From positions 9,186,465 to 9,250,464 of the forward strand of contig CM057149.1 of the NCBI GenBank assembly GCA_029964075.1: a stretch of DNA of 64,000 bases, written 5' to 3'. The stretch comes from Patiria pectinifera (Eukaryota > Echinodermata > Asteroidea > Valvatida > Asterinidae). The notes beneath the pieces are model-generated. The model had not been told where the DNA came from and did no database searches. It saw nothing but the letters and a program-made list of their open reading frames with translations. Shown in pieces: positions 452-64,000 of the stretch. Position numbers and translations under genes: made by a program. Every line of letters begins with the position of its first letter. Position 1 is the first letter of the stretch.

Positions 452-1486
452 AGACATTCACCCGTGCAGGAGCTATGGAAGAAGCGTTACAAAGCAAGGA
501 TTCCGTTTGTTGGTGGCCTTTTTTTTCGTCCCTTACTATCCCAAAGCGACGGGACGGGGTTGAGTGGGTGGGGTGAGGGAGGCCCGCGGGTTGGAGTGCA
601 GGTTGGAAGGGTGGGGAGGTTGGGGCGGTGCACCGGGAACACTCCATGCACATTTTTTATTGACCCTTTTGGCCTTGCCCATTATCCCGACCCCTTGGGG
701 CGGGGCGGGGATAACATTTCCTTTGTTCCTAATTTTTCCTTTTTTCCGTGCACCATTATCCAGACCCCGGGGAAGGGGGAGTTAGGGGCGGGGGGAGGGG
801 CGAATGGGGGATGGGGGCAAATGGGGGATGGGGGCCGCGTCCCCACCCATTCTGGAATTTGTATTCCTGTGGAGACATTTCTTTGTTCTCGTGTAGTAAA
901 GTTTTCGAGTGTGAAATTGAAGTTTCAAAATGCTCTTATTTTAACCAGAATTAATTTCTTGGGCTGAAATTTGGACTAAATATCCCTTTTCTAAAACTCT
1001 TCCATTTGCGACAGATCAACCTACCTTGGAAATTCCTAGTTTTTGAGTAAAATCCATATATCTATTTCGTGAAATTCTTGTGGAGACGTATTCATCTATA
1101 GAAATGTTCTTCTTGAGACGTATACAATCTTTTGTTCCCTATTGTGTTCATGTCTCCGTAAGGTAGTAAATTCCAGAACACTTCTACGCCTGTGCAATTA
1201 AGCGTGTGTGTGTGGGGTGGGGTGTTAGAGTACTCCGAATCAGGAGGTTGGAATGCCATGGTGTTTTTTATTAACCCTTCCCGCTGCCACCTGGCGCGAA
1301 ATGAATTATACTATGGGGTGAAAATATCCCATTTTCATGCAATGATGTTTTGGGGGTTTTGGGGGAGGTTGGGGGGGAAGGGGCTTTATACGAAAACTTA
1401 AAAACAGTAATCATGAAAAATATAAAATTTAAAAAAGTGCAAATTGCAGAAACCAATATCTCATATCTCTTTTGTGAAAATGTTGT
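452..1486. other. Gene-free G-rich stretch
   Basis: Positions 541-850 are strongly G-rich on the plus strand, with many runs of three or more G. The open frames here are low complexity. No gene or bounded repeat is recognised. Confidence 0.4.
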
Positions 1487-1502
1487 GGCTCTGAAAAGAG
1501 CC
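1466..1502 (-). promoter_or_regulatory. Histone 3' stem-loop and downstream element
   Basis: On the minus strand 1502-1487 reads GGCTCTTTTCAGAGCC, an exact match to the metazoan replication-dependent histone mRNA stem-loop that binds SLBP. It is followed on the minus strand by ACAACATTTT and then CACAAAAGAGA (1476-1466). The latter is purine-rich and resembles the histone downstream element bound by U7 snRNA. The pair marks the 3' end of a histone gene transcribed leftward. Confidence 0.88.
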
Positions 1503-1511
1503 GTTTTGGTT

Positions 1512-2960: not shown

Positions 2961-4839
2961 TCGGACTTGCGATATATAAGGCCCCAACCTTGATAGTATA
3001 GCCTCCCATGCAGCTACGGAACAACTCGAAATTTCGGTTAATCAGGGTATATATATTGTTTTATTTCGTAGTACTATGCAGTTTTCTTTGACCATGGAGG
3101 GATGGTTTGAATTTCAAGTTTTGAGTTATCAGTGTTGACTTTATCCAGATTTCGCTTATTCCAATTTGTCAGCGTTTTCACGAAGGGGTGAATTTGCCGC
3201 AATAGGTGTTGGAGTTTAATGGTTAGGGTTAGGTTTGGGGAACAGGTATAACATAATGCACCCGTTGAACTTGCAGTGGTTGTCAGAAAAGAGGTTTTAA
3301 GTTGGTCACGATTTGGAATAAACATTTCGCCTACTACTGACTAACTTTTGAAACACAGATGAAACTTCAAAGATGTACCAATTACAGAATAATGGAACAA
3401 CAATTGCGAGGTACCGGTATCGTAACTAATCCCCATAGATGTTTGTCTGGTCGTGAAAACTAAATCCCACACACTTGTTGTTTTGGCAAATTGCCGATAC
3501 CCATTCCCCACCCTTTGCACGAATTTGTCTCTTCGTAAAAAGTCAAAAGACATTCAGGTGAAGTTTTCTCAACATTGATGTTATGATTTCGTTGATTTTA
3601 TCTGATTTTGACCCAGACTTCTTTCCAAAAAATGTTCGTTGCGTGCATTTACCAATTTCAGCCGGAACAAGAATTTTGAAAAGAGGTATGATTTTTGGAC
3701 TGATAATTTAGTCCCTCCGTAAAAACGCTGAAAAACTTTTGCAATTTGATTCAAAAAATTTCAAAACTATTTTTTAGAAGACTTGTCATGCTTACTGCTT
3801 ACTTACTTTGATTCGATTTTTTAAAGAGCGAGTTTTTGACTATGTATTAGCCTGGGGGAGATGATAATCTGGATTGTTTGTTTTGCGTCTGTTCTTTGAC
3901 GACTCTTCTGAATTGCCCCCATGATCTACCCCTTTCGTGAAGTTGGCATCAAGTGTATTTCCTTTTATTTTCATGCCTTTGTTGTTATAACTTCTCGACA
4001 TTATTGACAAGTGGTGAACATTCATATTCGTACTTTTATTAGTCATCTAAGTTAAAAACAAACACATTCTTGTCCTGGTGTAAAATCAAAGAGTAAAAAA
4101 AGTAAAAACAGCATGCAAGAACTGACAATAGTATAACTTACATTTAAATTAACCTATGAATAAAATATGCCTAACATAATAAATTTTAAAATGATAACAA
4201 AAAGACTGACAGCAAAAAGACACGATGCTTATCCGTCCCGGGCTAGCACTGTGACAATAAAATATAACTTAGAAATATGCCGGGGAAAAAAGGATAAGAA
4301 CTTTAAAAATGTTTTTTTTTTCCATCGTCGTAAAATCCACAGGTTCAGATTTTGAAAAGTTATTAAACTTAAATAAGGCTATTTTGTACTGTGTTTTCCA
4401 GTGGCTAATTCACAACAAATGATGTAGGAATCTATACGATCTTTCATATTTGCTGTATTATTATGTAACTTTGAATATAATCCAATTGCATTTTGGTCAA
4501 AAATAAAATGAAGCAAGCTTCGAGTTTAACTCCGTTTTAAAAAATTGACTTGAAGCCCCCGATCCCCTGGATCATCCAATACATGTACAAACGCATTTGT
4601 ATGCAGTATGCATGCAGTGCATAGTGTGCCTGGCCGTGGCGTGGGAACGTATCAGATTACATATCGGCCGACCGCAATATCGATCGGTTCAAAAATAGAG
4701 GGTCCGCGCGGGTATTGACCTAGATTGACCCGCAAACGTTCGGGTTGTCTGTGACGTAGGCAAGTCACCGACATATTTTTTCTAAAAATGACTGCAAGTG
4801 CGCAGGCGTGCAAATTTCCGCACGATGCATAGGCCAAGT

Positions 4840-5936: not shown

Positions 5937-8900
5937 GATTCTGAGAAGAAGTTTTTCAAACGAGGAGATTTGATGAAGCAACAAGAAGAAGACTATTGGA
6001 AAAGACATCAGAAGGTGTGTGTTTCGCTATTCAGAAGTCGTCGTACCCCAAAACACTTCCTGCTTGGAATAGGTTATCCGATGTGGCCCGTTATGCCCCA
6101 ATGTTTTAATACAAAACTTCCAGGATCACAAACATGACTAAAAATCGAGTTTGCTGATCTACATAAATGTACCAAAAACTAGTTTGCAACGACTCCTTGC
6201 ATTGCGCTGACTGTACGGGATAGCCACGCTAGGCATTTGGGTGACTGCTCTATGTTCTGACACCCTATGTTCCGACAACCAGCACATACGATTGCATTAC
6301 TCCCGGCTAGGGTTAGGCAGTGGCGTCGCCAAGGGGCAGGGGCACGTGCCCCCCCCCGGAAAACCTAGTGCCCCCCCCCGAGTGCCCCCCCATCTGAGAT
6401 TTGGGTTGGTAAAAAAATATATATATATATGCGCGTTGTTAAAATCATTACCTCAAAAATAGCAATTTCTGGAGATATCTTCAGATCGAATTTAGCATCA
6501 AATGTGGCACCATTTTGCATCTAGCCCATCCTCCGTGCAATCTGTATCCACCTAAGTGCCCCCCCATCAAATGCTGGTGCCCCCCCCCTGTGCCCCCCCA
6601 GACTGAAAAGTCTGGTGACGCCACTGGGGTTAGGGTAAGGAATATGAATATGTGCAGTCAGAACATAGGGGTGTCGGGACATAGAGGTGTAACCAGGCAT
6701 TTGTACAGAAGCTAACAGATGCAGATGCTCAAATGATGTAAATTTTCACACTGAATAAAAAACGTTAAAAATTAAACCATTGAAACAAGAAACACTGAAT
6801 ATAAGTCTTCGTTGTACCTGAATGACTGACTGACTGACTGACTCCCCGACTCCCCGAATCACTGACTGTCTTGCTCCCCGACTGTCACTTGTGAACTGGG
6901 CAGTGCTGTCGTATAGGATCACCCAATACCCCACCGAATGGGATTAACCCGGTGTAAACTGATGCATGAAAATGCTTCCTTTGAATACCAATCTGAATCG
7001 ATTGAATAGAAATCTGTGCTCTCTGGGAGTGACGTGCCAACTGCCTTGTCTTGTATTTGTTATTTTCAGGATGACAGTTCTGATTCCAAAGAGATCAAAG
7101 ATGACAAGAAGAGAAGAGAATCAATAGAGACGATGGATCCGAATCTAGTCACTCTATCCAGACAAGAGGTGTGGTGAAAACATTGATATTTATTTCATTA
7201 TAATATTTTTACTTTGTGGTCAAATCAGAATTGTTAAAATCACACTGTGTGTACCTTTTGACTGAGTGGATGAATGATTAGTGTGAAGTGACTAGTCCAA
7301 AAATTTGGGACTCTCAACACTGTGTACATGTATGAGAGTCCCAAACTTAACCCTAACCCACCTCACTCCTCCAAAATCCTCCTGGCGGTTTTGGAGGATT
7401 CTAGAGGATTGAGGATGAATGGTGATTGAATCAAATGAGGATTCTGGAGGATTGAGGATGAATGGTGATTGAAGCACAAGAGGATTCTGGAGGATTGAGG
7501 ATGAATGCATTTTGAGGCAGGACTGTCTGATGATTTTGAAGGATTTGGCGTTGGTTATCCTTCATTTAAACACGAGTGCAAAGTTTTGGGATGAGGAGGA
7601 TTTTGGAGGATTGAGGATGAATGCATTTTGAGGCAGGACTGTCTGACAATTTTGAAAAATTTAGGCGGAGTTGCAACATTTTGGAAAATTTTGGAGGATT
7701 TTGGAGGATTGAGGATGGTTGTAAGCAACAAGGGCCTAGGGGGTTAGTTAAGGGAATAAACACATGCAATGCAAGAAAATGGACTGGCACATGAAACAAC
7801 CAGTCCAGCACCCTTTTAGTACTGCATCAATCAACTGTGTCAAAAGAAACATCTGGTACCCAGTCTCTATTTCTACACATTTCCATAGTCATGCTACCAG
7901 ACTACTGAAGGGTCATCTTCTCAAAAAGTTTGTCACGTGCCAATCTACATGTACATGTAGCATTAGGCTTCAAATTGAAATCACTTGGCTTCACTCTCAG
8001 GTGCCAAATGTTGAAGAAAAGTCTCCTTTGAAAATGGCATTGAGACCTCAAACATGGCTAGTGAAATACCAAGGACTTTGTCTTTGCCTTCTATTTTGTC
8101 GGCTATAGAGTGAGTAAAGTTGGCCTGATTTTGTTTTGCATGACCCAGTCTGTGAAGTGACATGTTTTTATTCTTTTCAGTATTTTGGTTTTATCAATGA
8201 ATTGTATTCCACTCTTTTTTTGTATCCTGTTAAACCCCAATTATAGCACTGGTCCCAACTACAGTTGACATGGTTGAGATGACCCCAACAATAAATTGGG
8301 GTCATCTCAACTGTAGTTGGGACTGTCTCATATATGTAGTCGGGCTGATGCTATAGCTGGGGCGTAACATTTCTATGAAGAATGCAAATAAATATTGTAT
8401 AAATAAGGGATTCATAAATACCTAAGACAGTTTACGCATTCCTATTGGTCGAGAGCCCGTCACGTGGCCGGTCTTAAACGGATGATAAAGACATGGCTAG
8501 CTGGTCTTAAACACTTTTCCAGTGTCACAATAAAATGTGGACTCCTAAAAATCCAGTGCCTCTTATCGTTTCATTGGTTGAACGTTCACAATCCTCACGT
8601 AGGCATGCGCAACACTACCAGGGAGTCAGAATTTTAAAGTTCTAAATTCAAAACGCAACGCGACAGGTGCGTTCTGCGCGACATCGCGCAGAACATGATA
8701 CGCGCGCGTCAATCTCCATAAAAGGGTTGTTTACATCTTACTCGCCAGCTGAACACTCCATTATTTTGCAAGAGGGATGTTTCAAAAAGCATAAAGTGAA
8801 CTTGTTGAACAAAATTGGGATGTTTTGAACGAATTATATGATTTTTTCTTACCGAAAAGGTATTTATGAATGGGAATAAATATGTGCTCCGTCGGTATTT

Positions 8901-11900
8901 ATCACTCTGTTTAAGACCACTTAGAGTCTGGGTGCTGATAATTACCCTCGCCTCCGGCTCGGGTAATTATCAGCACCCAGACTCTAAGTGGTCTTAAACA
9001 GAGTGATAAAAACCTCCGAAGCACACATTTATTCCCTTAATAAATGTGGGCTTGGCCGGTTTTAAATACTCTGTTTTAAGTCCGATTGGAGTTGATGCTT
9101 TCAAGTAATTATCAGCATCCAGACTCCAACCAGTCTTAAACATAGTGTTTAATATTGGCCAAGAACATATTTATTCCCATTCATAAATACCGTTTCGGTC
9201 AAATAATCTATACTTTTCGGTCCACAAGTCAAAACAATGCAAAAATTATAAATTTCCGACAATTTTGTTCGAAAAGTTTACTTCATGTTTTTCGAAACAC
9301 CCCTCTTGCTATATTATGGTACGTCCATGTCGTAAACAACTCCTTATATGGAGATTGGTGCATGCGTCGCGCATACTGCGCGATGTGGCGCATACTGCGC
9401 GATGTGGCGCAAAACGCAGCTGTACCGGTGTAATGTGAATTTAGGACTATGAAATACTTTCTCACTGGTAGTATTGCGCATTCCTACAGTTTGTACGTGA
9501 GCATTGTGAACGTTCAACTAATAAAACAATAACTAAATAGCACCGGTTTCCATAGGAGTCAACATTTCATGTGACACTGGAAAAGTATTTAAGACCAGCC
9601 AGCCGGTCTTTATCAACTGTTAAAATCCGGCCAGGTGACTGGCTCTCGACCAGTAATAATGAGTAAACTGTCTGAGGTATTTATGAATAACTTATAATCA
9701 GCATTAAAAAGTCGATAACATTCATGACATTTGACAAAATTGTTTTGCAAATTTTCAAGCTGATTTTCTCGTTTTGCGATAACCAGGTCATCAAACGGAT
9801 GAGGGAGAGACAGGAACCAATCAAATTGTTCGGTGAGACAGACGCCGAGGCATTCTTCAGACTACGGCGCTATGAGATGTTGGCACCAGAAGTCAATAAG
9901 GTTAGATGGGCAGATTTCAAAAGAAACATTTTGATTAACCCTAACCTTCCCGTTCCCAAATCCTCCCAAATCCTCTTTGCAAAATGGAGCATTTTGGAGG
10001 ATTGAGGCTATATGGCAAAAATGTGTGGCTGATTTTGGAGGATGCACTGTGTCAAGGTCTATTTTCTGACTTCCACTCGGGGGTAACACACTGAGTAAAC
10101 AGTGTTTAAACGTCAGTGAAGGGCAAAATCCAACATTGAATTTACATCACCTCGATGCAAATTCCATCTTATGAATAGTTTTATTGTGGTACCCGCCGCT
10201 AAATCAGATTCGAACCAGCCAACCGATCCCGCAAGCTCGGTGGTCGAGTGGTAAGACGTCTGCACTAGAATGCTGGAGGTTGTGGGTCGAGTCCCACCCG
10301 AGTGATTTTTTTTCACTTTCACTCGGGAGGTCACACACTGAGTATACAGTGTTTATACATTGGTGAAGGGCAAAACCCAACATTGAATTTCCTTCCCTGA
10401 ACAACAACAACAACAACAACAACCCCCCTGTGAAAATGTCTGGGTATGTTCATGAACACTATTCATTCCCATACTTCATGCTACCAAAGCCCAAGACCTG
10501 AACTAAAGCAGGACTTTCCTTTACCTTGTTCTGTATTTGACTCTCGACCTTGTAATTACATCCCATCTATTCCTGATCCAGGGTTTGCGCAACGACTTCA
10601 AGGAGGCCATGGACAAAGTAGATCAGCAGTATCTGGAGGAGATGGTCAAACTACAAGGGGAGGATGTACCCAACAGAGCTTATGACATCAAGTTTGAGGA
10701 CGATGGCTCGACGATTGACGACATCATCGAGATGTCATCTGGTATGGGTCAGGGGGATGATGAACTGGATAGTAATGTCATCATGAGATACGTCAAGGTA
10801 GTCTAATTAGTTTGATAAAAAACCTCAAAGTTGAAAAAGAAATTGACTGGAGCAGGGTTTGAGCCTGCAACCTCCAGATTGCCGTTCTGGTGCTCTACCA
10901 ACTGAGCTACCCATCCCTGTGTTGGCGGTTCCCAAATTTGTCAATGTGTTTGTTCAAGGGGCGCTAGTCAGAAGCCAGCATAGGGCTGGATAGCTCCAGT
11001 CAATTTGTTTGTTCAACTTTGACATTTTGTTTTATATAATTCACCTAGTCAGTTTCCCTTTGTGGTTTATTTGAAAAATTGATGATAAAAGATATATTTA
11101 TTTATTTTAACTGTCTCTGGTGATGAACCCAAGGCTTTTTTTTAAACAGTGAACATGCACTGTGGCTTAAGGGCCTTAAGAAAACTAGAGCAACAAGCAG
11201 TGTTGAAGTCAAGTTTGTTGTGATGGATCACAAGTCATCACAAGTCCAATCACAAGTCATCACAAGTCAATCACAAGTCCGTCACAAGTCCAATCACAAG
11301 TCAGTCACAAGACTTTCACAAGTCAATCACATGTCAATCACAAGTCCCACAATCTTTTCTATGAACTGTAATTTGTTTAATGCATATATTCGTCCTAAAC
11401 AAGGCTAAAAGCCTACCCAGGTACAGGGTTACAAGAGAAATAAAAAGAAGAGTAGGTACTCAGGAAAACTGAAGGTAGGAATGAACATTCCTCTTAAAAC
11501 AGGACAGATCATAGGTTGGAGGGAAACAAGCACCAGGCAAGGAATTCCAAACAGATGCAGTACGTGGGAAAATAAGCTATTGGAATATCCTTTTGTTCTA
11601 CATCTAGGTAGTACAAAAGTACATGGATGTGAACAGGCGGACAGCCGAGTTTCTCTCTCAAACACTCTGATTGGAGGACCCAGGTTGGACAGACCGGTGG
11701 AGCAGTGACCTTGATAAACGCATTCCTTTGTTATTGTTCATCTGCTGTTTCTTGTGACCAGATTTGTGATTACTTACGACTGGACTTGTGATGTACTTGT
11801 GATCCATCACAAGTGTCTTGACCATAACACTGGAGAGAAGGTGGTACAGTAATACATGTAGTCAGTTTTTAGAAGTGGGAAGAAACCTGGTATGATTTTC

Positions 11901-16871: not shown

Positions 16872-19800
16872 CTATTTAATCATCTTTCTCTCTCTCTTGC
16901 TACGTCTTAAGACATTCTCTCCGTCTCCAAATGAGCTCCCGCTATCGCTGGCATTGCTTCCACCGTCTTGCTTCTTGCGTTTACGACGTCTTGTCTCAGC
17001 AACGACAGACAAAGGGCTGTCAAAAAAGGAGAAAATTAGTAAACGGTTTCACATTCCAAGAGATAAATGTCTTGAAGTCAACAGATACAAGAGGTAGCAC
17101 TAGATACTACGCTGCATTGGACTGCAAACTACTTCACATAGAGACACATACAAGGCATAAAATTGTTTGCATTTTTTGACATATAAAAAAAAAGCACAGC
17201 ACTTGCTGTAATATCAATTATTTTAACTGTGTGTATTTTACACTGCAACTTGTAGATCTAGCCACGTGAAAACGTGGAATTATTGTGATGTGCAGGCACT
17301 TCAGAAATATAAATATTTAGTCTAAATGTCTGAGAAATTTAACTAAAAAATGTTCATGAGAATCGCCTATGCAAATCGTATGGTAAAAATGGCGAACGAG
17401 ACATTGGACATATCACTAGTGGAGACGACCGCGCGTGACGTCACACTTCTATGGCGTATTACTTTGTTCAACTTATGTTTGAAACTGACACGATTGACTG
17501 AAATTAAAATTGTCTAGATGTAAACATTATTTGTACACCCTGTAAGCCAATGCAGCATAACTCTTGACTTGAGTGAAGTACACAAAGAAAATTGGATTTC
17601 TCAGTGAATGCTACAAAATATGTAATATCATTACCTCTCGGGGATACACAGTGGTTCTAGAGAATCAGGGGCAGGGTCACTCTTCACACTAGATGTCTCG
17701 TTCTTCTAGTAAGACCAAAAGAAAATTCTTGAGATGAAAACAACTTGATTCTCTCAATTTTACACTGGTACTGGTAGAGAGACTGTGTTAAAATATTAAA
17801 AGGTTTTTTTTGCATGGAAATTAGGGCTAGACTTTCCAATTTTTGAATAAAATTTAATTAGTCCTTTCACCAAATAATTATGGCACAACCGACAAGAAAC
17901 CCTCCCACTTGTTTTTATTGAACATAAAAAAATGATAACAAAAACACTTTGAAAAGCAATGAATACAGTTCTTGATTAACCCTAACTCCCTAGGCATTTT
18001 TGCTAGGATGCAACCTCAATCCTGCAAAATCCTCCAACTGCCTCCATGTAAAAATAGCATACAGCCTCAATCCTGCAAAATCCTCAGTTATTTCTTGAAT
18101 GTGGTCCTTGGAGGGGTGACCACTGCCTCAATCCTGCAAAATCCTCCAGCAATCACTGTCAATATGTTGAGGCAGAGCCAGTGACATCCTGGAGCAGTGC
18201 GGAGGATTTCAAGTGTAATCAAGGACTAAATTTATGCACGGCTGAACATAAACAACACAAGGTCTGGTCCAAGACCTTGACACAGTGCATCCTCCAAAAT
18301 CAGCCACACATTTTTGCCATATAGCCTCAATCCTGCAAAATCCTCCATTTTGTAAAGAAGATTTTGGAGGATTTTGGAAGGGTAAGGTTAAATGAGATCA
18401 GTTAATCCTTGGTTTGAATGCCTTGCTGCGAACAGAATGTCCAAAATAAAAAAGAATTATTTGTTTATAGATTTCTTTGCCATTGTGATTGGCTTGGGAG
18501 TATTTTGAAAGCAACTCCGCCCCTTTACCGTAGGAACTCCCCTTGCTGAACAACAAATCATACTAAAATTTAAGTGTTTTTTTTAAAGCAACTTACAGCT
18601 CTTGTCATGTTTTGTGATTGGCTGTCCTCCATTCCGTCCTTTGACGCAACGCTCGGTGATGAAGGAACGAGAATTCTACAATCAGCCTGCCCATGGACAT
18701 CAGGCCCAGAGAAACTAGCCATGAGCTCCGCGTTGTCTAAACAAAGAAATGGCACAGAAATAAATCAAACATTTTAAAGATGGATTATCATTTCTGGTGA
18801 TCATAACTCCCTAGGGTTTTTTTGAAGGAAACTCCCTGGATCTGCCATTTTAAACAAAAATTGAGTTCAAGGACCATAAGCAGATCACTGCCTAATCAGA
18901 TTTATCTGGTTAGCGAAAATAAACGGAGAACCAGTCAAACAATATATACCTTTATATAGCATTTTGGTTGGTAGCTTGTTTTTGCTAAGCAAGAATTTTC
19001 AGTGCTAAAATTCTCGTCTTTAGCAACACCATGAAAGTTGTGACAGTTAGTTTACCTTGCTTCATATGAAGACTGCTCTCAGATGTATCCATAACCATTT
19101 CTTCACTTTCCCCGTTGTTTTCCGTCGCCTCCTCTCCTCCGCTACCCTCTGAAAATAAACTCTCAGTTCTGTCCAACTCTGCATCTTCTTGGCTCGTGTC
19201 TTGAGCAGCATCTCCCGGTATTCTGTCATCTTGCTTTTTCTCAACTTCGTCTTCTAAAACCATCACATCTTCAAGCTCTTGTACGGCAGAATTTTCAGTC
19301 ACTGAACCGACCGGTCTGTCACTGGCGGTACTGTCCTCACTGGAGGTGGACGTCTCCGCTTCGTTGGAATCTTGTGAAGCATCTGTCTGATTTGGTCCAG
19401 CGGCTTCTGTTTTACTTGACTTATTTTTCACTCCTTTCATTCTTGCCCGGGCTACAGCAATGAGCTGACTGAACTGATCCTTGTGAGCTGACACTTGAAA
19501 AGGAAACGCAGGGTGAAGAAATAACTATTCAGATTATTTTTAAAAGATTTGGGGTTGATGTTTACCCTGCTGAAAACTTGTTGACATTGTTACCGTTATT
19601 ATAAAAATACTGTCAATTTTATAAATCTTTCCTATAAATATATCACAACACTGCAACTCCCATTATTTGATGTCACAATTCAAAGAAAAGCAAACTCACA
19701 GTATTCCTGCTTTGACTTCTCCATCTGATCCTCAGTTTGTCCTTTCTCTATCTTGAGTTTCTGGGAATCAAAATCAAAACAAAGTTAGATAAAACTGGTT

Positions 19801-26201: not shown

Positions 26202-29200
26202 ATGGAAGAATACGCACGTGAACCATGGTGAGTTTGCGACGAAATTTACACTTCCTACATGACATTCATGTCATGAAGGAAGCTTCAGAACACAATAACT
26301 AATTTCAGGGGTAAATAGGGGATGAGTGACCGTATGCCTCTGTTGTATTGACGGTGTTTCATTTGAATGAAATCCGAGTCGAGTTACCGGTGAAATTAGC
26401 ATCATTCATCATGAGTTAGTGTTACATCATTCGATTCCTTGTGAATGTGAAGTTGTGTATTTTATTTTTTATTGTGGGAGCCGTTTTGGGCGATTGTGTA
26501 GTGTAACTTTAGAACCCCTCTTTAGTTTTGATCAAATTAGAGTCCGGAGTGTTTTTTATCATTCAAAAATGACCTTTTCAACAAAAAAAACCCTCCTATT
26601 TCGTAATTCAAATAACATCACTTTTGAGTTTTGTAATGTAATTTAGTTATTTTATTGTAATTTCTGGTGGTAAAAAATGTGATGTTCTTTAGCGTTTTAC
26701 ATTTTGGAACCAGACTATCATATCAACCAAATCATGGTTCTCCGACTTAAATTTCTCTTTAAAAAAAAAATCCTCCAAACATGCCAAAACCACTAATTTC
26801 AAAGAAGAAAACAAAATCTACTTAAATAAAAAGAACAATTTGATTAAAAACCTGAAACTTAACATCCTTAAGAAATCTATTATTGGAGTATTAACAAAAA
26901 AATAAGGAAAACAAAATTGAGTAGCGCAGCAGGGATTCGAACCAGGGTCCCCACCACCTCATAGAGCTAAACGTCTGTACCAATCGAGCTACCGAAGTGC
27001 TCTGGTTGGAAAGGCAGTCAAATCTGATAAATTTGCATTGTGTTTTTACAATGCCGTAACAATAGTATTTGAAACTTGCGTTACGGCTGTCGTAACGATA
27101 GCCACTACGTTCACGGCCATCTTCATCGTTGCTTTACCCCAAAATGTCCCTAAAATAATAAAAATTCTGACCTCTATTTACGACATAGGCCTACCTGTTG
27201 GCTTGTAATGGCGCTAACTAGTTTGGTAAGTCAAATAACTTAAAAAGGGCATTTTTGTTCCCTACAGGGAATAGAGCCCTAGACTACACAATTGCATGAC
27301 TATTAACCTGATAGGAAAATGATAGAAGTGCTGACTAATAATCTTTAATCTGAACTACATCTACTTAATAACCTAAACTTATTTAACCTACCGGGAACGG
27401 TATCAATCATTCATTATATTTTAGTCCCTGGAGGATAGTAGACGATTGCGGTGGAGCCTTCTCCATGGGATGCATCGGTGGAGGAGTGGTTCATTCTATA
27501 CTGGGAGCTAGAAATGCACCGGCTGTAAGTATAGACACTGACAGACTCCGTGAAAAAAACTTTTAAACAAATTTTGAAACAAAACAAATTTTGAAAGCCC
27601 CAGTGGTATAGTCTATGTAATAGACCCTTGCGAAATGTTACCTGGTACCCGTGTTTTACTTCAATAGGGTACCCGGACTACCCGGTTCCCGCACTACCCA
27701 AAAATGCACACCACTACCCAGTGGAAGGGACACACTAGGTAAATCATGTTAATCACAAATCAATTCACAGGTAGGTCACAAGCAGACTGGGAAAAATATG
27801 CAAAACTAAAACAGGCCAACTTAACGCTCACTCTTTTGCCCTCCTATGGAAGCATGCATTGTCAGCCTGGTTATTACTGGGGTCAATATTGGTCAAGACC
27901 CCCATTGGTTTGTACACAGTAGGCCAGGATGTGAGGAAGAACATTTTGACCATTGGTGACCTCTTAAATAGAGGGAGGGTGAAAGAACAAAATTGTCCCA
28001 ATTCTCAGACAAAGACAAGGTTGTCAGTATTTCACCAGCCAAGTTTCAGGTCTTAATTCATCTTTTAAAGGAGATTTGCCTTCAACATTTTGCACCTTAG
28101 TGTGAAGCCAAGTGATTTCAATTTGAAGCCTGAAGCCCGGTACATGTCCAACTTTCTGAAATGATTGACCCTTCAGTAGTCTGGTGGCATGACTATGGAG
28201 AGACTGTTGACATAGAGGCTGGTACCGGATATTTCTTTGACACAGTTGACTGATGTAGGTCTAAAGGGTTGATGGACTGGTTGTTTCATGTGCCAGTCTA
28301 TTTTCTTGTGTTGCATGTTTTGAATACTTAAGGTTTTGGTGCTCTCATACACAGTATTGAGAGTCCAAAATTGATGGACTTGGTCACAAGTAACGGCTAC
28401 ATCACTGGGCACTTGTGCCTAATTAGATAACAAATCGGGCAAATAATTAAAAATAATTACCAATTGCAAAGTGATTTCACTTTTGTTTGATGGCTGTGTT
28501 TCATTGCAGGGCTTCAGGCAGAGATTTATTGGCAGTTTTTTGACAGTCAAACACAAAGCACCCATTGTTGGGGGTAAGTGTAAAAAGTTGTTGCCCAAAC
28601 ATTCTGGAGAAATGAAGTTGATGTGGCTGTCCATTGTTGCATGTTTTTGCAGAACGTTTTGGCAAGAAATATCTCATTGTGTTTAAACATCACAAACAGA
28701 CTCTTAACATTTTGAGGAGCTCCAGGTTCTGGCAAAACAGCAGTTGCGGTATTTCGTCTTCAAGATCCCCAAACACAGAATGTGAATATTTTCATTTCAG
28801 TGAAATTAAGTGTTTGAGAAAAGTTCATTTCAAAAGTTCAAAATCATTTTCAAGTTGGCTTTATCGTCAAAATTAGTAGCACACAAAAAATGTTTTGATT
28901 TTACAAAAAAATCTAAAACAGAAACAACACATGAATTTGTGATATGGCTCTCTAAGAAAAGAAACAGTTTGATCGTAATCCTGATAGATAGTTTTAACTG
29001 AAACATTTTGAACATTTTGACATTACTAGGTAATTTTGCAGTATGGGGCGGTCTGTTTTCCACATTTGACTGCGCTCTTGTTCACATACGTAAGAAGGAA
29101 GATCCCTGGAACTCCATCACAAGCGGAGCGTTAACAGGAGCGGTCTTAGCAGCGAGAAGTAAGTGTCAAGATAGTGTGTTTGTTATGTGAACATTTCTTT

Positions 29201-31486
29201 GTAAAGTGTACATTGCGTACAGCAGCCAGAGAACAGTAAACCAATGGCATAAAGGTTGCACACAACCTTTAACCCTAACCCCCTAGGCCCTTGTTGCTTA
29301 CAACCATCTTCAATCCTCCAAAATTTTGCAACTCCGCCTAAATTTTTTAAAATTGTCAGACAGTCCTGCCTCAAAATGCATTCATCCTCAATCCTCCAAA
29401 ATCCTCCTCATCCCAAAACTTTGCACTCGTGTTTAAATGAAGGATAACCAATGCCAAATCCTTTAAAATCATCAGACAGTGCTGCCTCAAAATGCACTCA
29501 TCCTCAATCCTCCAAAATCCTCTTGTGCTTCATTCACCATTCATCCTCAATCCTCCAAAATCCTCATGTGCTTCAATCACCATTCATCCTCAATCCTCCA
29601 AAATCCTCATGTGCTTCAATCACCATTCATCCTCAATCCTCCAGAATCCTCATTTGATTCAATCACCATTCATCCTCAATCCTCTAGAATCCTCCAAAAC
29701 CGCCAGGAGGATTTTGGAGGAGTGAGGTGGGTTAGGGTTAATGGCAAGGGGAGGGGCATCTTTTTTCCCCCGGTATCATCTGAAAGCAATATTTGTTTTT
29801 AGGCCTTTATAAGTTTGTAGGCTCATGTGGCAGTTTAAGACCAATTTCATAAATATTTATTCTCAAAGTTAAATTTTTTGACAAAAGGTTCCAGAAGTCC
29901 ATTGTATTCCATTGACCATGTTTAGGTAAATGTACTTATTCATGGACAGAATCGTGGAATATTAATGACCATGATGATGAAGTGCTTTGTCCAATTGTGC
30001 TAAAATTTACGGTGTACTACGCATGAATGTCTGCACTGGCTTACCGATATCGGTCGTTGTGTTTCTTTTAGATCAAATGGCCAAAATACCCCAGCTCTTC
30101 TGGGGTTAAATTTATAAACTTTATTTGAGTTATAAATTTATTTAATTTATTAACAGAAATTGTGGCTGGGCCTGAATCCATCAATATTCATTCATCAAAT
30201 TTGTTCAATTTTTTTTTTCACAGATGGAGCAGTCGCAATGGCTGGATCAGCAATGATTGGTGAGGCCTTTCAGTTTCATGTTTTACACAATGTATTTTAA
30301 AATTTTGTAATTTCCTGTGTTGTATGAGACCATTTTTGTGCATATTAAATTACTTTCACATTTCATTGTTTACATTATTACAAAAACTCAAAACCTTGTA
30401 TATTGTTTGGTTTGCTGTAACAGGTGGTGTATTATTGGCCATGATTGAAGGCATTGGTATCTTGATGACGAGAATGTCGGCAGATCAGTTCAGACCAGGT
30501 AGGAAGTTTGAAGTGTCGTATTCAAGCCATCACAAGTCACGCAGTCTCGAGTCAAGAACAAGGTGTTCAAATGAAAAATGAACCTATTGATAAGATAAAT
30601 ATGCGTAGTTTAAAAAAAATGAACTGTGCCCCCGTTTCTTGTGACCTGACTAATGATGTGTCTTGCAACTGCCCATGACCAGAAAGCACATTTCATATTT
30701 AGTTTTCATAATTGCATTACGACTTTTGTACATAATGTAGTATTAGAGAAACTTGCAACTGGATTGCAATGTATTCTCAGATTTCTGCTCTGTCAGTTTC
30801 AACAAAAAGGTGCCACAATCAGTGCCAGGAAATACATCAACACCATGAGGATAGAGTTTGAACTTAACCACTTGGTGCCGGGATTATCTTTGCCAAAAAT
30901 TTCGATTATTTGCAAAAGGCAAAATTGTCCAGCCAACTTTTGATATACAGCTAAATGCCACAATAGTGATTCACAAGAGTCATTTCAACAGTATTTGTAA
31001 GATATGTTTTTGCCGAAACCTCATATGTTTCAATACTCTGGGGTGTGCACTGGAGCATAAATTGTACAACAATAGGCCAATTCAAGATCAACACACAGTC
31101 TGCCTCCACAGACTTCACGGACTTTGTGTGTGTGTACAAAAGGCAGGAGGAATTAGCATGTTTAGACGTCACCCGGAGGCGAGTCGAGGCAATCTTGTTG
31201 TCTTAACCCGTCAGCCGTGCCTGTGTATAAAAACAGCCAGTGCATGTTATCACGGCCTCCGACATGAACTGGTTAAAAACGAACTAAAAACAAATCATCA
31301 AAATTCCCGTCTTTGGCCCAAATTTGACTTAGAAGTTAACCAATACCTCGTCTGAATGCTGTTATATGATTGATTCACAAAATTCTGTCCTTTGTCTTTC
31401 TCTCCACAGTGAATCCCCAGATGGAAGACCCCTCCCAGCTTGGACCCAAAGCTCCGCCCCCCTTCGGCAACACGCAGTATCAATGA
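26202..31486 (+). CDS. TIMM17: TIMM17, mitochondrial inner-membrane translocase subunit
   Basis: TIMM17 is a core subunit of the TIM23 complex that moves presequence proteins across or into the inner mitochondrial membrane. Exons: 26202-26227, 27425-27524, 28510-28573, 29030-29158, 30224-30259, 30424-30498, 31410-31486. They total 507 nt, giving 168 aa plus TGA, with phases that join. Diagnostic segments are [20 protein letters not shown] at the N-terminus, [19 protein letters not shown], and [20 protein letters not shown], followed by the last hydrophobic segment [17 protein letters not shown]. Four hydrophobic segments are expected for the Tim17/22/23 family and fit here. The C-terminal tail is short and proline-rich ([10 protein letters not shown]). 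Vertebrates have TIMM17A and TIMM17B; this invertebrate copy cannot be assigned to either. Introns carry a TTAA element, a tRNA-like repeat and a dispersed repeat. Confidence 0.97.
26921..27003 (-). repeat. tRNA-like sequence in TIMM17 intron 1
   Basis: On the minus strand it has box-A-like GGTAGCTCGATTGG and box-B CTGGTTCGAATCC, spaced as in a tRNA. The anticodon arm is not cleanly paired. It is most likely a tRNA-derived retroposon head or tRNA pseudogene. Confidence 0.5.
28040..28380 (-). repeat. Dispersed repeat, uninterrupted copy B
   Basis: This is the reverse-oriented counterpart of the repeat at 7280-8110. At the point where copy A carries the TTAA element, this copy has one TTAA at 28328-28331 flanked by the same sequence. 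It therefore serves as the pre-insertion site. It lies in TIMM17 intron 2. Confidence 0.8.
29269..29741. mobile_element. TTAA-flanked element, telomere-like-end family
   Basis: It starts TTAACCCTAACCCCCTAGGC and ends GTGGGTTAGGGTTAA, with TTAA at 29269-29272 and 29738-29741. The interior repeats CATCCTCAATCCTCCAAAAT. It is the inverted counterpart of 7347-7751 with near-complete ends. It lies in a TIMM17 intron. Confidence 0.88.
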
Positions 31487-34124
31487 TAGCAACCAAAAAC
31501 ATCCTTCTTGTGTACATTTGTAATTTCATGGTCTTATTTTACAAGGCCTTTGAGACATAGAACAGCTGTGGAACTGGCAGGCATGTCACATTGCCTTCCT
31601 ATTACCCTACAACTGTTTTGTGTTCCATGTTGATGTTTTCCTAGCATGGTTTGATTTGTAGTCATATTTATATTATAATTCAGTCTTACTTTATACTTGT
31701 GCACAAGTCAGGAATAACGTCAGACATTTTTTAATGGACACCATGCACATGTACCCCCCTCAACAGTTTAAAGGTATAGTCCATCATTTGTAATTTGTGC
31801 ATTTTGTTCGTGTAAAGCAACAAACGTGATCAAAATCTAAAGAAGGGTGCTGAACAACTAACCTGATGAAGTTTCAGCTCAGCTTCAGCTGTATATTTCG
31901 AGAAAAACAGCATTCTGGGATCCCGATGTCAAATCAAAAGTTGCTGAATCATGTTTTGAATTAGGCAAGAATTCAGCGTCCGAGACACGTTCTCACTGAG
32001 CCGATTGCAGCTGTACGCGATGTCGCGCACTGATCCGATGAATTATAGTAACTGCACGCGCGTGTGCATCGTGTCAACGTCTGTGCGCGCTTTGCCGAAT
32101 AAAAAAACACACCATTAATGGAATTTCCAGTGGTGCGTCTTAAGACAATACAATGCACATTAAGAAGGTTTTGTGGTCATCAGCTAGTAGTAGACAACTA
32201 CCCAGAACTATCAAATAAAAAGGGCCTCCTCCTTTTTAAGCCACATATCCTATAAGCTAAATATGGCTATTTTAGTCAATTTTTCAATAAAACAAATTAA
32301 AAATAAAAGGCCCTCGTCCTCTTTTTGAAAAAAAACCCAGACGATCAACTGGTGATTTTTTTTACTTGTCCTTATTCATCTAGTCTTTTATTTTGACGTG
32401 CATTTGTACACTCATATTGCATGATCCAGTCGAATGACTAGAATGACTAGAAATAAAACGTTTGTAACTTTCAGATATTTCAAATTTCATGTTGTTTCAG
32501 CAGAAACCGAGGGAAATGTAGCAATTTTTACATTGTGTACAAAATCGTGAATCATCTGTAAATTTCTTTTCTTTTTTTGATTTTAGCCAATTAGCGATTG
32601 TCGCCCCCATTCATCACCGATTTAAACAGGTTCGAAAAAAAAAGGACGTCTTGGGCAAATGGGAGATTTTTCTTGCCGACTTAAAGGACGAATGTTAATC
32701 AAGGTTTTGTGTGTGAAAATACATGTACATTGTATATTCATGTCCAGAAAGATTATGAACTCGTCTGGTATTTCTTTGTTTGAGTCAAATATATGAAATT
32801 CATACAAGTCATTAAATGGACAAGATAATGCGAATTTCAGGCATAATTGTCTAAAACAAGGAGATAACAGACTGTTTTCAGCTCATACTAAAATAACTTG
32901 AAGATGCAACATGTGTTTAAACATGTACAATTAACATTTTATAGTTCTGTCACCATTTGTGGTCGCAATTTTTGTCGGTAGCACCAAATTCATGTGTAAA
33001 AATGTACATGTACATGTGAAAATAAAATTATTAAAAACGCTTGTGTAAAGAGAATATGTGTTGCTAAAATTTTATAATTTGAACTTTGTCCTGGTAATGT
33101 AGCCATGCTCACTGTACGAGTGAGTTAGCCGTTTAATTCCACCTTTCGATTAACTTCTAACTCCCTAGGGTCTTTTACTAGGAACTGGACCAATTCCATC
33201 AAAATCCATCAATCACTGTGCGTCTAATACATAATTGTATGTGACATAATTGAATCCACCACAGACGCACTTGTTGACATTCATGGACTTGCTACACATG
33301 GCTTTTTATCACAGTAGCAGTAAAGGAAGCTAGGCAAAATCAATCAGATACCCCTAGCACTGCTTCAGGCTATTAGGCCCTAGTCCATCATACTCCATCA
33401 ATACTTAGTCACGCCAGGCCTTCTGGACCAAGTCCCCCCAACTCCACCAAACTGGGCGGGGGGGATGGGGGGGGGGGATGGATTGTGACGGAGTTGGGGT
33501 GGTTAGGGTTAAGATATCTTGGACTTCAAATACAAGAGTTTACCTAAACCAAAACAGCACCCTTCTTGTGTGTCCACCATATTTTCCAAATTCAAAATGT
33601 ACTTGTATATTGCAGTTTATTATTACTGATGTGCAAGATACAGTGTTGGTGTAAAGGCCCAGCAAGTTGGCAGAAAATACCCAGAATGGTAAATGGCGTG
33701 AACAAATGTATCCTTTCTGCAAGTTAATGACCTCATGGATATGCGTAATTTGAAATCCCTCATACTACACGTCATTAAAAGATCCAGTAACCCTCATTCA
33801 GCGTGTTCCATTGCTGCACTTTTCAAATTATGCGCATCATAAAAAATGCGTACACATGTACATGTCCAGCTTTTGTCAGACATTTGGTTCCACAATTGCA
33901 GCTACAGTTGGTCAAAATATTATGCTACAAGCCTCGACTGTTTTTCATTGATCCCACTTCGACTCCAATAATTTGAAAACCTAGGAAAGCATGCATAGTT
34001 TTGCCATCTTTGGACCCGCCCCCCCCCCTCCCCTAAGTATTATATATTTTCCCTCAAATCCGAGTCAGACCACAGAAAATAACTCTCACTAAGAAGGCCA
34101 GAGTAAGACATGTACACTTGTCAA
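31487..34124. other. Spacer between TIMM17 and RPS23
   Basis: No protein-coding segment is recognised. Several AATAAA sites (for example near 32098, 32213 and 32286) could end TIMM17 transcripts. A TTAA-flanked element occupies 33150-33512. The sequence from 31770 (TTTAAAGGTATAGTCC) looks like one end of a further TTAA-type element, but I could not find its partner. Confidence 0.45.
33150..33512. mobile_element. TTAA-flanked element, CCATCA-unit subfamily
   Basis: It starts TTAACTTCTAACTCCCTAGG and ends GGTGGTTAGGGTTAA, with TTAA at both edges. The interior has CCATCAAAATCCATCAATC-like units instead of the CCTCAATCC units of its relatives. The element at 41903-42121 belongs to the same subfamily. 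Confidence 0.72.
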
Positions 34125-34355: not shown

Positions 34356-37161
<2,806 letters not shown>

Positions 37162-37513: not shown

Positions 37514-40500
37514 ATGGAAGGAACTCTGAAATTTGTGCTCCACATTTTGGCGATATTTTCGCCTGTTTTGTGCTTTGGGGAACAACCAGTCCCACTCATA
37601 GCATGGTCAAATACAAGGTAAATATAAAAACTGTAAAATACTTAATATTGCGTATTAATGAACACATGAAAACATTTTGAAAAGATCAAAATATTTTTTG
37701 CCTTTTCTTTTCAGTTTCACAATCTGAAATTTTTTGTTCAAGTTAAATCTAGATGTAGGCCTATTATTTCGTGTGTTGTTACAAACAACACAATGTTACA
37801 GTAGTTTTACTGCAACCTTCGTAAACCGAGTGTAACGTTAATCATTTGTGTTTCATATTTTTACTTAGAGTTAGACTGAGGAAAATTTTCATGAATTTTC
37901 AATGTTGTTAATTCTGTGTTCCTTCCTCCATGCTTCTTATTTTTTACTGATGTTAGAAATTTGCACACCTGTCATGACTGTACAGTTGCCAACTGTCAGG
38001 TTTCCTAGTTTTGGATTTTTCCTAGTTCCAGATCGTTTCAATGAAAATTTACCTCGGAAAGAATGTTGCATCCTGACGCCACTTATATATTTATCTCAAT
38101 GAAGGTCAGTACATTCCAAAAATGTTGAAAAGACATAAATCTGGAACTGAGATTGAGAATCATTTCCAATTTTGTTGGAAAATACTTTGAAAATGCACTT
38201 GACTCTCCATAGACTTTGTACACAACAAAAGAAGTGGCGTCTGGATACTACATCATGTACATTCTTTCCTCTACCAATGTCTACCAATTTTGGGTTATAC
38301 TTATAGCCTACTTTTCATCCGACAAAGTGTGTTTTGTCTTTTGAAATGTAAAATGTAATCTTCTACCCAAATATCTTTTCCATAAAATCTCTACAAACAG
38401 TAAAACTAAACTGTGTACTTTGGGACCCCTTTTCTGAAATAGCTGGCAATGTTTGAAAGCAGCAGGAGTGTCTTGAAAAAAAGGGCGGGGTTTTAAATTA
38501 AGAGGAAAATTAGGAAATTAAACAACAAAAGACAATGTGAAAATGTGTGATGGTTCCAGCACACATAGTAAATGCACAACACTGTTGATTAGCACAGAAT
38601 CAACTTGAACATGTTGTGGATAAAACAGGTAGGAAAGTCGTATTTTTCATCAAAATACCATCGCTAATCTTGAAAACTAGAGAAATTTTGTCCTATGCAG
38701 AAGTCATTTTGGAGTGATAAAAAGTATTCTAGAACTGAAGTGAGAGAGGGTCCAAATTCTTTCCATTGTTAAAATTACATTCCAGAATGAAAACTTGTCA
38801 TGCATGTGTTGCCTTAAAATGTCCATTTTCCAAACTTCGTATTTTACACTGTCTACTACTACAGGTCCTTTGCCAACAAGCCCAGAATTTCTGCAGGCAA
38901 GTTGGTTACCAGGGAGGAGTTGGGTACCAACTACATCAGCAGCATCCTGCAGACGCAGCCGCAGAATATTTTCCTCTTTGTCTTTGATGAGGTGAGCTAG
39001 TGTAACCGGTATTACTGCTTGTTTCATTTAACCCTAACCTTCCCAAATCCTCCAAAATCCTCTTTGCAAAAATGGAGGATTTTGCAGGATTGAGGCTACA
39101 AGCCAAAAGTGTGTGGAAATGGCCAAAATTTTGTTGTTTATGCTCAGCCATGCATAAAGTTAGGCCTATTTTATAACTAGAAATCCTCCACACTGCTCCA
39201 GAATGTCACCGGCTCTGCCTCAACATATAGACAGTGATTGCTGGAGGATTTTGCAGGATTGAGGCAGTGGTCACCCCTCCAAGGACCACATTCAAGAAAT
39301 AACGGAGGATTTTGCAGGATTGAAGCGAATGCTATTTTTACATGGAGGCAGTTGGAGGATTTTGCAGGATTGAGGTTGCATCTTAGCAAATACATGTGTG
39401 CCTCTAGAAGGAGTTAGGGTTAATTACCCGCACTAGTCCTTTTTCCTCAAAGTACCCAGAAAAATGCAAAAATCATAAAAATCATTCCAGATGCTCGTTT
39501 TTCGTTCATGGATACAGTTTTTAGGGCCCGACCTTACCATGTTACATTTGCTTGATTCCCAGATTTGGACAAATAATGAAGTGATTTTGACTCAGAACAG
39601 ACGATGACACATTTAATTCAGTGTGGAGAAGTTGGTCATTACCTGAGAGTGCATATATCTGTTGTTTAGCTATGAGTGCCACTGTGTGGATATGACTCCA
39701 TTTCCTGTGATACTACAAACATGCAGTTGGATGGATAATACCGCATACTTGTACTTACATGTACATGTGCATCGAAACAGGAAGGTAGCAGACATGCACT
39801 ATAAATGGTCAGTTGTGTGGATGGAAGCCACACAGTTGCGAATAGATGATTTCAGTTTCTGGGGCATAGTTTTTTCCCATGCCCTAGGGAAACATGAATT
39901 CTTGAGGATGTAAAACATACATGTGCTTCATGTCACAGTAGTCTAGAGTTGTAATTGTGTTTTGTATCAATTTTGTCAAAAGTGCTTTGCCTAAGTACTA
40001 TTCAACAAATCAAGAATATTATCTGTTCTTTGTAAACGGCTTTGTAACTACATGTACATGTAAACACCCCAATGCCGCCCCTCCCCCAAAACCCCCAACC
40101 CAACAAACAAACAAACAAAACATACATGTACATTTGTTGAATATGCTATCATTTTTTTTTAACTGACATGATTGTCATTGAGTTTCAAGCTCTGAACAAG
40201 AGATATCTACAAACACTTGTGTAGTGTATTGTTTGGTTTATGAATTGTGGAAGACTAAACAAAAAAGATTAAATAATCCCAGTGCTTACATGTACTTCCA
40301 TGCAGCGCAATTCCAAACTCATGATCATTGTGCTTTACCAATGCCTAGAGGAGAAGCCTACATCGTTTTTTTATTAGGTAACTCGCATATATTTTGTTAT
40401 TCGTTACAGTTGAGTATTGACGATATCACTAAGTACAGCAATGCATACAGTGCAGATGGGCAGGGCGGTGCTCTGAGCAACCTGAAGGTAAAACATAAAC

Positions 40501-63590: not shown

Positions 63591-64000
63591 CCAATAGAGC
63601 AAAATCACAATTATTACATATCAAAACTCATCTTCCTAATGAATTGTCCTCTCAAACATAGTCAGATAATGATTTTTTTTTAGGTACCGGTTTCTTTGAA
63701 CGGTTTTATATTCAGATTCTGTGCACCTTGTGAATGCTTTGTGTTATTATTATATCTTCGAAGTAAGATGAGATTTGAAAGTTTGCATGGTGGAAAGATA
63801 CTTAGACAAGATAAGTTTGTCATACTGCTTGAAACGTTGAGTCCCTCCGGTTCTTTTCAGAACCACACATACTCACAAAAGAGATTTATTCACATGGTGC
63901 TACCACAAACTTATCTTGTCTTATTATATCTTCCCAATGCACAATTCCATCTTATACAATAAAAGCCTTTGTTACTTTCACAACCAAAGCTTGAAATATG

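Follow-up and report, generated by a model that had tools for sequence, protein, structure and literature searches.

The 397-bp element considered here, which lies in a stretch of 64,000 nucleotides of Patiria pectinifera DNA that was analysed as a whole (the window), is a member of a family (family A) that almost certainly consists of non-autonomous, TTAA-inserted transposons of the piggyBac type, i.e. MITEs. The affiliation with piggyBac had been proposed in a preliminary description of this DNA and was substantiated: the termini start with CCCT and are not of the RR..YY type, and the same genome holds complete transposons of the piggyBac superfamily that encode a DDD transposase and agree with the element in their outer ends.

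The TTAA that had been reported for each edge was indeed read on both sides of the element (Table 1). The preliminary description took the whole of 7347-7751 as the element; that range is bounded by TTAA, but the element proper covers 7351-7747 and the last GG of the family end is gone. At its right edge the window copy reads TTAG directly followed by TTAA, versus TTAGGG followed by TTAA in the family. Since this last GG is missing in the window copy and in one other copy (L044), the right boundary as first described is correct and it is the window copy that is slightly changed with respect to the family. As had been stated, no transposase is encoded: the longest open frame that touches 7351-7747 comprises 81 amino acids and runs out of the element, and a piggyBac transposase domain (PF13843) was not found within these 397 bp, which hold no frame above 81 aa. 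Because such a transposase is absent from its interior, the element was filed as non-autonomous, a class for which that absence is expected.

Table 1. Coordinates, in the window, of the family A element, its relatives and the host repeat
Feature	Position	Strand	Remarks
Left TTAA target duplication	7347-7350	+	read directly
Family A non-autonomous element, 397 bp	7351-7747	+	ends CCCTAACCCACC / GGGGGTTAG; last GG of the family absent
Right TTAA target duplication	7748-7751	+	read directly
Internal tandem 43-bp units, 2.7 copies	7394-7507	+	more diverged units at 7596 and 7684
Host dispersed repeat, left part	7288-7346	+	hairpin arms 7301-7316 / 7333-7348
Host dispersed repeat, right part	7752-8089	+	7759-8089 79% identical to 28007-28321, with indels
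Uninterrupted host-repeat copy, related empty site	28007-28387	-	alignment with joined flanks
TTAA at matching point of uninterrupted copy	28328-28331	-	read directly and by alignment
Second family A copy, 465 bp plus both TTAA	29269-29741	-	extra 43-bp units
Family B related element	17976-18391	-	TTAA on both sides
Family B related element	39028-39423	+	TTAA on both sides; first 68 bp 87% identical to L063/L056
Family C related element	33150-33512	-	ends CCCTAACCACCCC and changed CTTCTAACTCCCTAGGG; TTAA on both sides
Family B-like fragment, left end only	9935-10058	+	
Fragment with CCCTAATCC end	36080-36178	+	similar subterminal repeats

The claim that the element sits inside a dispersed repeat was upheld by the alignment of its joined flanks with a second copy of that repeat. 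Compared with the minus strand of 27801-28420, the joined flanks aligned through the insertion site on both sides with a score of 371, versus 32 for the best of 200 shuffles. Therefore, the two host stretches are homologous across the site and the flanks continue over the junction as proposed, which disposes of the possible non-homology that had been raised at the same time. The second copy is uninterrupted and on the opposite strand, with its TTAA at 28331-28328, as described, but its extent is 28007-28387 and it is a paralogous rather than an allelic empty site. Likewise, the count of exactly one TTAA holds for the matching point, the whole uninterrupted 620-base stretch used in the alignment containing five. 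Both arms of the host hairpin end beside the TTAA. Downstream of the host repeat, visual inspection revealed an inverted repeat at 8252-8323, one short insertion being present in an arm (GTCCCAACTACAGTTGA...).

The genome was also searched for further filled and empty sites, as had been suggested. With the uninterrupted host repeat as query the best 40 of 1988 candidates were scored. The element was absent from all of the 39 further copies (these 40 minus the window's) read over the site, and a TTAA, counted within 32 bases before the landmark, was present in 29 of them, where such a query disfavours filled copies and the window's own filled copy is missing from the list. These empty sites are paralogous copies of the repeat and not excision products. 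One copy of family A (L047) was found at the same TTAA of another host-repeat copy in the opposite orientation, where one junction has preserved the TTAA and the other shows a small deletion; together with the window copy it makes up the two insertions seen at the hairpin-side TTAA.

A DNA search of the 613.5-Mb genome with the element, in which 40 of 1795 first-look candidates were scored, yielded 42 matches, of which 40 were almost complete. These 40 (L001, L009-L047) and the second copy of the window make up 41 distinct copies, which were listed in 42 rows because W7 and L001 describe one and the same copy. A strict end pattern was passed by 36 of the 41, where the pattern demands near-consensus ends; clean copies are thereby favoured, and conservation of the end columns looks higher than it is. 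The copies that fail are L001, L018 (with TTAA at both sides), L013 (which runs into a second copy), L044 (which has a right end without GG like the window copy, and no TTAA at its left) and L045 (with a damaged right end). The ends of the family read CCCTAACCCACC... and ...CCTAGGGGGTTAGGG, the family end being GGGGGTTAGGG, and CCCTAACC is found at both termini; the window copy has lost two of these bases on the right. Termini of piggyBac elements are given as beginning with CC[C/T]T in excerpts of PMC2872659 and as CCYT in those of PMC5601938.

A pair of flanking TTAA was present in 27 of the 36 clean-ended copies, a pair of TTAG in one (L033), and another arrangement in eight; at the left end alone TTAA was found in 29, and the background in the flanks of the same copies amounted to 17 TTAA in 2376 other positions. 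Given these TTAA pairs, the single TTAG pair and the low background, clear target duplications other than TTAA, the possible occurrence of which had been pointed out before, are rare (1/36). With the related empty sites, the pairs confirm the TTAA target-site duplication that was originally proposed. The direct TTAG pair suggests an origin of the four bases from the target, and TTAG is listed among the rare piggyBac targets in the accessible part of PMC10813416. In four of the eight deviating copies (L027, L028, L035 and L046) two or three additional bases separate a TTAA from the element end, symmetrically on both sides in the case of L046, and these bases could reflect variant cleavage or end repair; the other four (L015, L024, L029 and L047) have no matching pair. 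These eight copies without identical four-base pairs have to be set against the predicted mobility of family A as a piggyBac-type MITE.

The copies of family A fall mainly into two length classes, of 389 and 399 bp. Because mean pairwise identity is 97.2% in the short class (23 copies of 387-391 bp) and 97.6% in the long class (10 copies of 399-400 bp), in both cases for copies that had been selected by their similarity to the window copy, a fairly recent spread of the family is suggested. Being under ~500 bp and non-coding, with inverted ends and many copies of homogeneous size, family A has the properties by which MITEs are recognised in excerpts of PMC2872659.

The genome contains 110 matches to the piggyBac transposase domain PF13843, 30 of which were cut out and read as loci. 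About twenty piggyBac transposase matches are located within less than 1 Mb of one contig (G000:C20:27.97-28.82 Mb). Two of the loci are complete, L063 with 3519 bp and L056 with 3463 bp, both TTAA counted. They have the ends CCCTAACCGCCC and CCCTAACTCCCT, CCCTAAC and TTAA on both sides, open frames of 822 and 811 aa, and subterminal repeats similar to those of family A. The protein of L063 combines PF13843 with a zinc finger (PF13842, zf-Tnp_2). It is similar to the piggyBac transposase of known structure (6x67, E 7.1e-30) and to piggyBat (9c0f, E 3.3e-27), with alignment of the three acidic motifs (DDD), which we take to be the catalytic residues. Over its left 154 bp, a stretch rich in repeats, family A shows 72% identity to the left ends of both elements (E 1e-15), and the right end matches significantly over 29 bp only (E 7e-5). 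For family B, the first 67-68 bp are 82-87% identical to L063/L056. The match between family A and L055, a member of the same transposase clade as L063/L056, is confined to the outer 13-19 bases. L075 was considered as a complete source of family B and rejected, its match being nearly the whole of a family B element (27-414 of 416) beside the gene. The autonomous relative for which a search had been suggested was found as far as TTAA, CCCTAAC ends and a DDD transposase are concerned: L063 and L056 are the closest complete relatives of family A among the 30 loci read, none of which is a complete transposon that reproduces the ends of family A exactly. A parent of family A would be expected to combine a CCCTAACCCACCTCACTCC end with a CCCTAACCCCCTAGGCCC end.

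A transposase tree was made for the 22 of these 30 loci that have frames of at least 420 aa; L064, L067, L068, L072, L073, L074, L076 and L077 were left out for their short frames, and the last of these bears CCCTAAC. All eight rows with a CCCTAAC end cluster in one clade of nine rows (support 98/95), where the label means that a TTAA-CCCTAAC end occurs on either side of the gene, at any place in the available stretch. It was found on both sides only in L055, L056 and L063, and could for the one-sided rows belong to a neighbour. Because the ninth row, L070, lacks the label, a strict reading requires the label to change twice on the tree (a single change sufficed in 0% of 200 bootstrap trees). 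L070 is nearly identical to L059, L062 and L065, and its stretch stops at base 3798, just before the position of the end in L059 (3805) and L062 (3803). The stretches of the sister rows L061 and L069 contain no CCCTAAC end. Other piggyBac copies of this genome for which ends were found carry CCCTTTG (L048, L049) or CTCTTTC (L060, L071), in contrast to the CCCTAAC of this clade.

The ends had been described as telomere-like. This is true of the letters, and no link to telomeres was shown. Within one piggyBac clade of otherwise different elements, the ends joined to the target read TTAGGGTTA at each junction, presumably a telomere-type Myb binding site. That the clade and its miniature derivatives would use telomere-binding proteins of the host as helpers, or to mark insertions, is highly improbable. 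Slightly less probable still is the more specific proposal that family A is a piggyBac MITE of which the ends were selected to mimic telomere repeats, with TTAGGGTTA arising from end plus target and the host proteins helping or steering. It would account for the maintenance of TTAACCCTAAC within one clade of transposases, the elements of which differ in the terminal sequence beyond it, but according to the excerpts of PMC2872659 and PMC5601938 elements of the superfamily usually have CC[C/T]T next to TTAA, and this leaves about four further matching bases. A CCCT after TTAA is common in the superfamily, and about four bases of the likeness lie beyond what a piggyBac end usually shows; the likeness is best and most economically explained as coincidence. 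In the titles and abstract openings that were available no connection between piggyBac ends and telomere repeats is made, and CCCTAACC appears in none of the papers returned on the subject, as far as their accessible text goes; the telomere passage in the excerpts of PMC5601938 concerns herpesvirus integration. The start of contig C21, on which the window occupies positions 9186465-9250464, reads N.

Even less credible is an origin of family A as a non-autonomous element of the Kolobok type. Such elements duplicate TTAA as well, and KolobokP was reported from echinoderms, among seven phyla, in the accessible part of PMC9587614; yet the same text gives their ends as 5'-RR and YY-3', in contrast to the CCC...GGG of family A, and complete piggyBac elements with the same outer ends are present in this genome. 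Kolobok was rejected on these termini. The least credible explanation of all, to the point of being negligible, is that transposition never took place, that a minisatellite arose inside the host repeat or recombination occurred between two repeats, and that the TTAA pair is due to chance: the 43-bp tandem units inside the element would fit, but the same unit of 387-400 bp with the same ends recurs in many different flanks with TTAA at both edges in most clean-ended copies (27/36), none of the 39 other host copies read contains the element (in a list that favours uninterrupted copies), and a pure minisatellite origin was rejected on the genome copies with clean ends in different flanks.

As a piggyBac-type MITE, then, family A shares the TTAA target and the CCCT ends with the piggyBac superfamily (DDD; 6x67, 9c0f), and its complete relatives share the PF13843 transposase, the DDD motifs and a Cys-rich end. 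Unlike that superfamily, the window element has too little length to accommodate a transposase gene, and the relatives in this genome have a long acidic N-terminal region (811-822 aa in total). A further close comparison is offered by the CMITEs, piggyBac-type MITEs of Acropora corals. In the excerpts of PMC2872659 these are small elements with ends starting with CCC and a TTAA duplication, and for one CMITE family a piggyBac-like transposon with matching ends occurs in the same genome. A filled and an empty allele are described there, comparable to the filled and empty paralogous sites seen here. The CMITEs measure ~100 bp with a conserved interior, as compared to ~390-465 bp with internal 43-bp repeats for family A. 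Family A is an ordinary piggyBac-type MITE family, possibly new, and then only as one more member of its kind.

The window harbours several related elements. With at most one mismatch, TTAACCCTAACC occurs 13 times versus 0.29 times expected, and TTAA adjoining CCCTAAC eight times versus 0.03 expected from base composition. Four of the 13 matches (357, 363, 369 and 3221) are plain telomere-like repeats, the others being ends of family A (7347, 29269-29741), family B (17976, 39028-39423), family C (33501-33512) and the fragments (9935, 36080). By eye, four TTAGGG units stand between short inverted arms (GATGTTCCCCAATACC type) at 300-420, and this is a different repeat with a real telomere-like array. 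A weaker match to tRNA was obtained at 10234-10305 (36.3 bits), about 200 bases past the family B end at 9935, which is broken; the match may represent a tRNA-derived SINE. Stem-loops of histone 3' UTRs are located near both edges of the window (1462-1507 on the minus and 63844-63889 on the plus strand), and there may be replication-dependent histone genes at both sides.

The ends, the TTAA duplications, the related empty sites and the transposase genes with matching outer ends were all observed directly. For the process behind them we infer mobilisation in trans by a transposase of the CCCTAAC clade. A piggyBac transposase encoded elsewhere in the genome would recognise the CCCTAACC ends of family A together with subterminal repeats of the GGAGGATT type, and would excise the element and insert it into TTAA by cut-and-paste chemistry, with duplication of the four bases. 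The copy at 7351-7747 would in this way have entered the TTAA beside the small hairpin of a dispersed repeat that was already there.

The general picture of transposition is unchanged by these findings. They provide a clean natural case of TTAA insertion with related empty sites, and a miniature family of many copies that is tied to complete piggyBac relatives in the same genome. Moreover, several repeats of the window are explained at once. For the builders of piggyBac tools, the CCCTAAC-ended clade may constitute a further source of transposase and ends.
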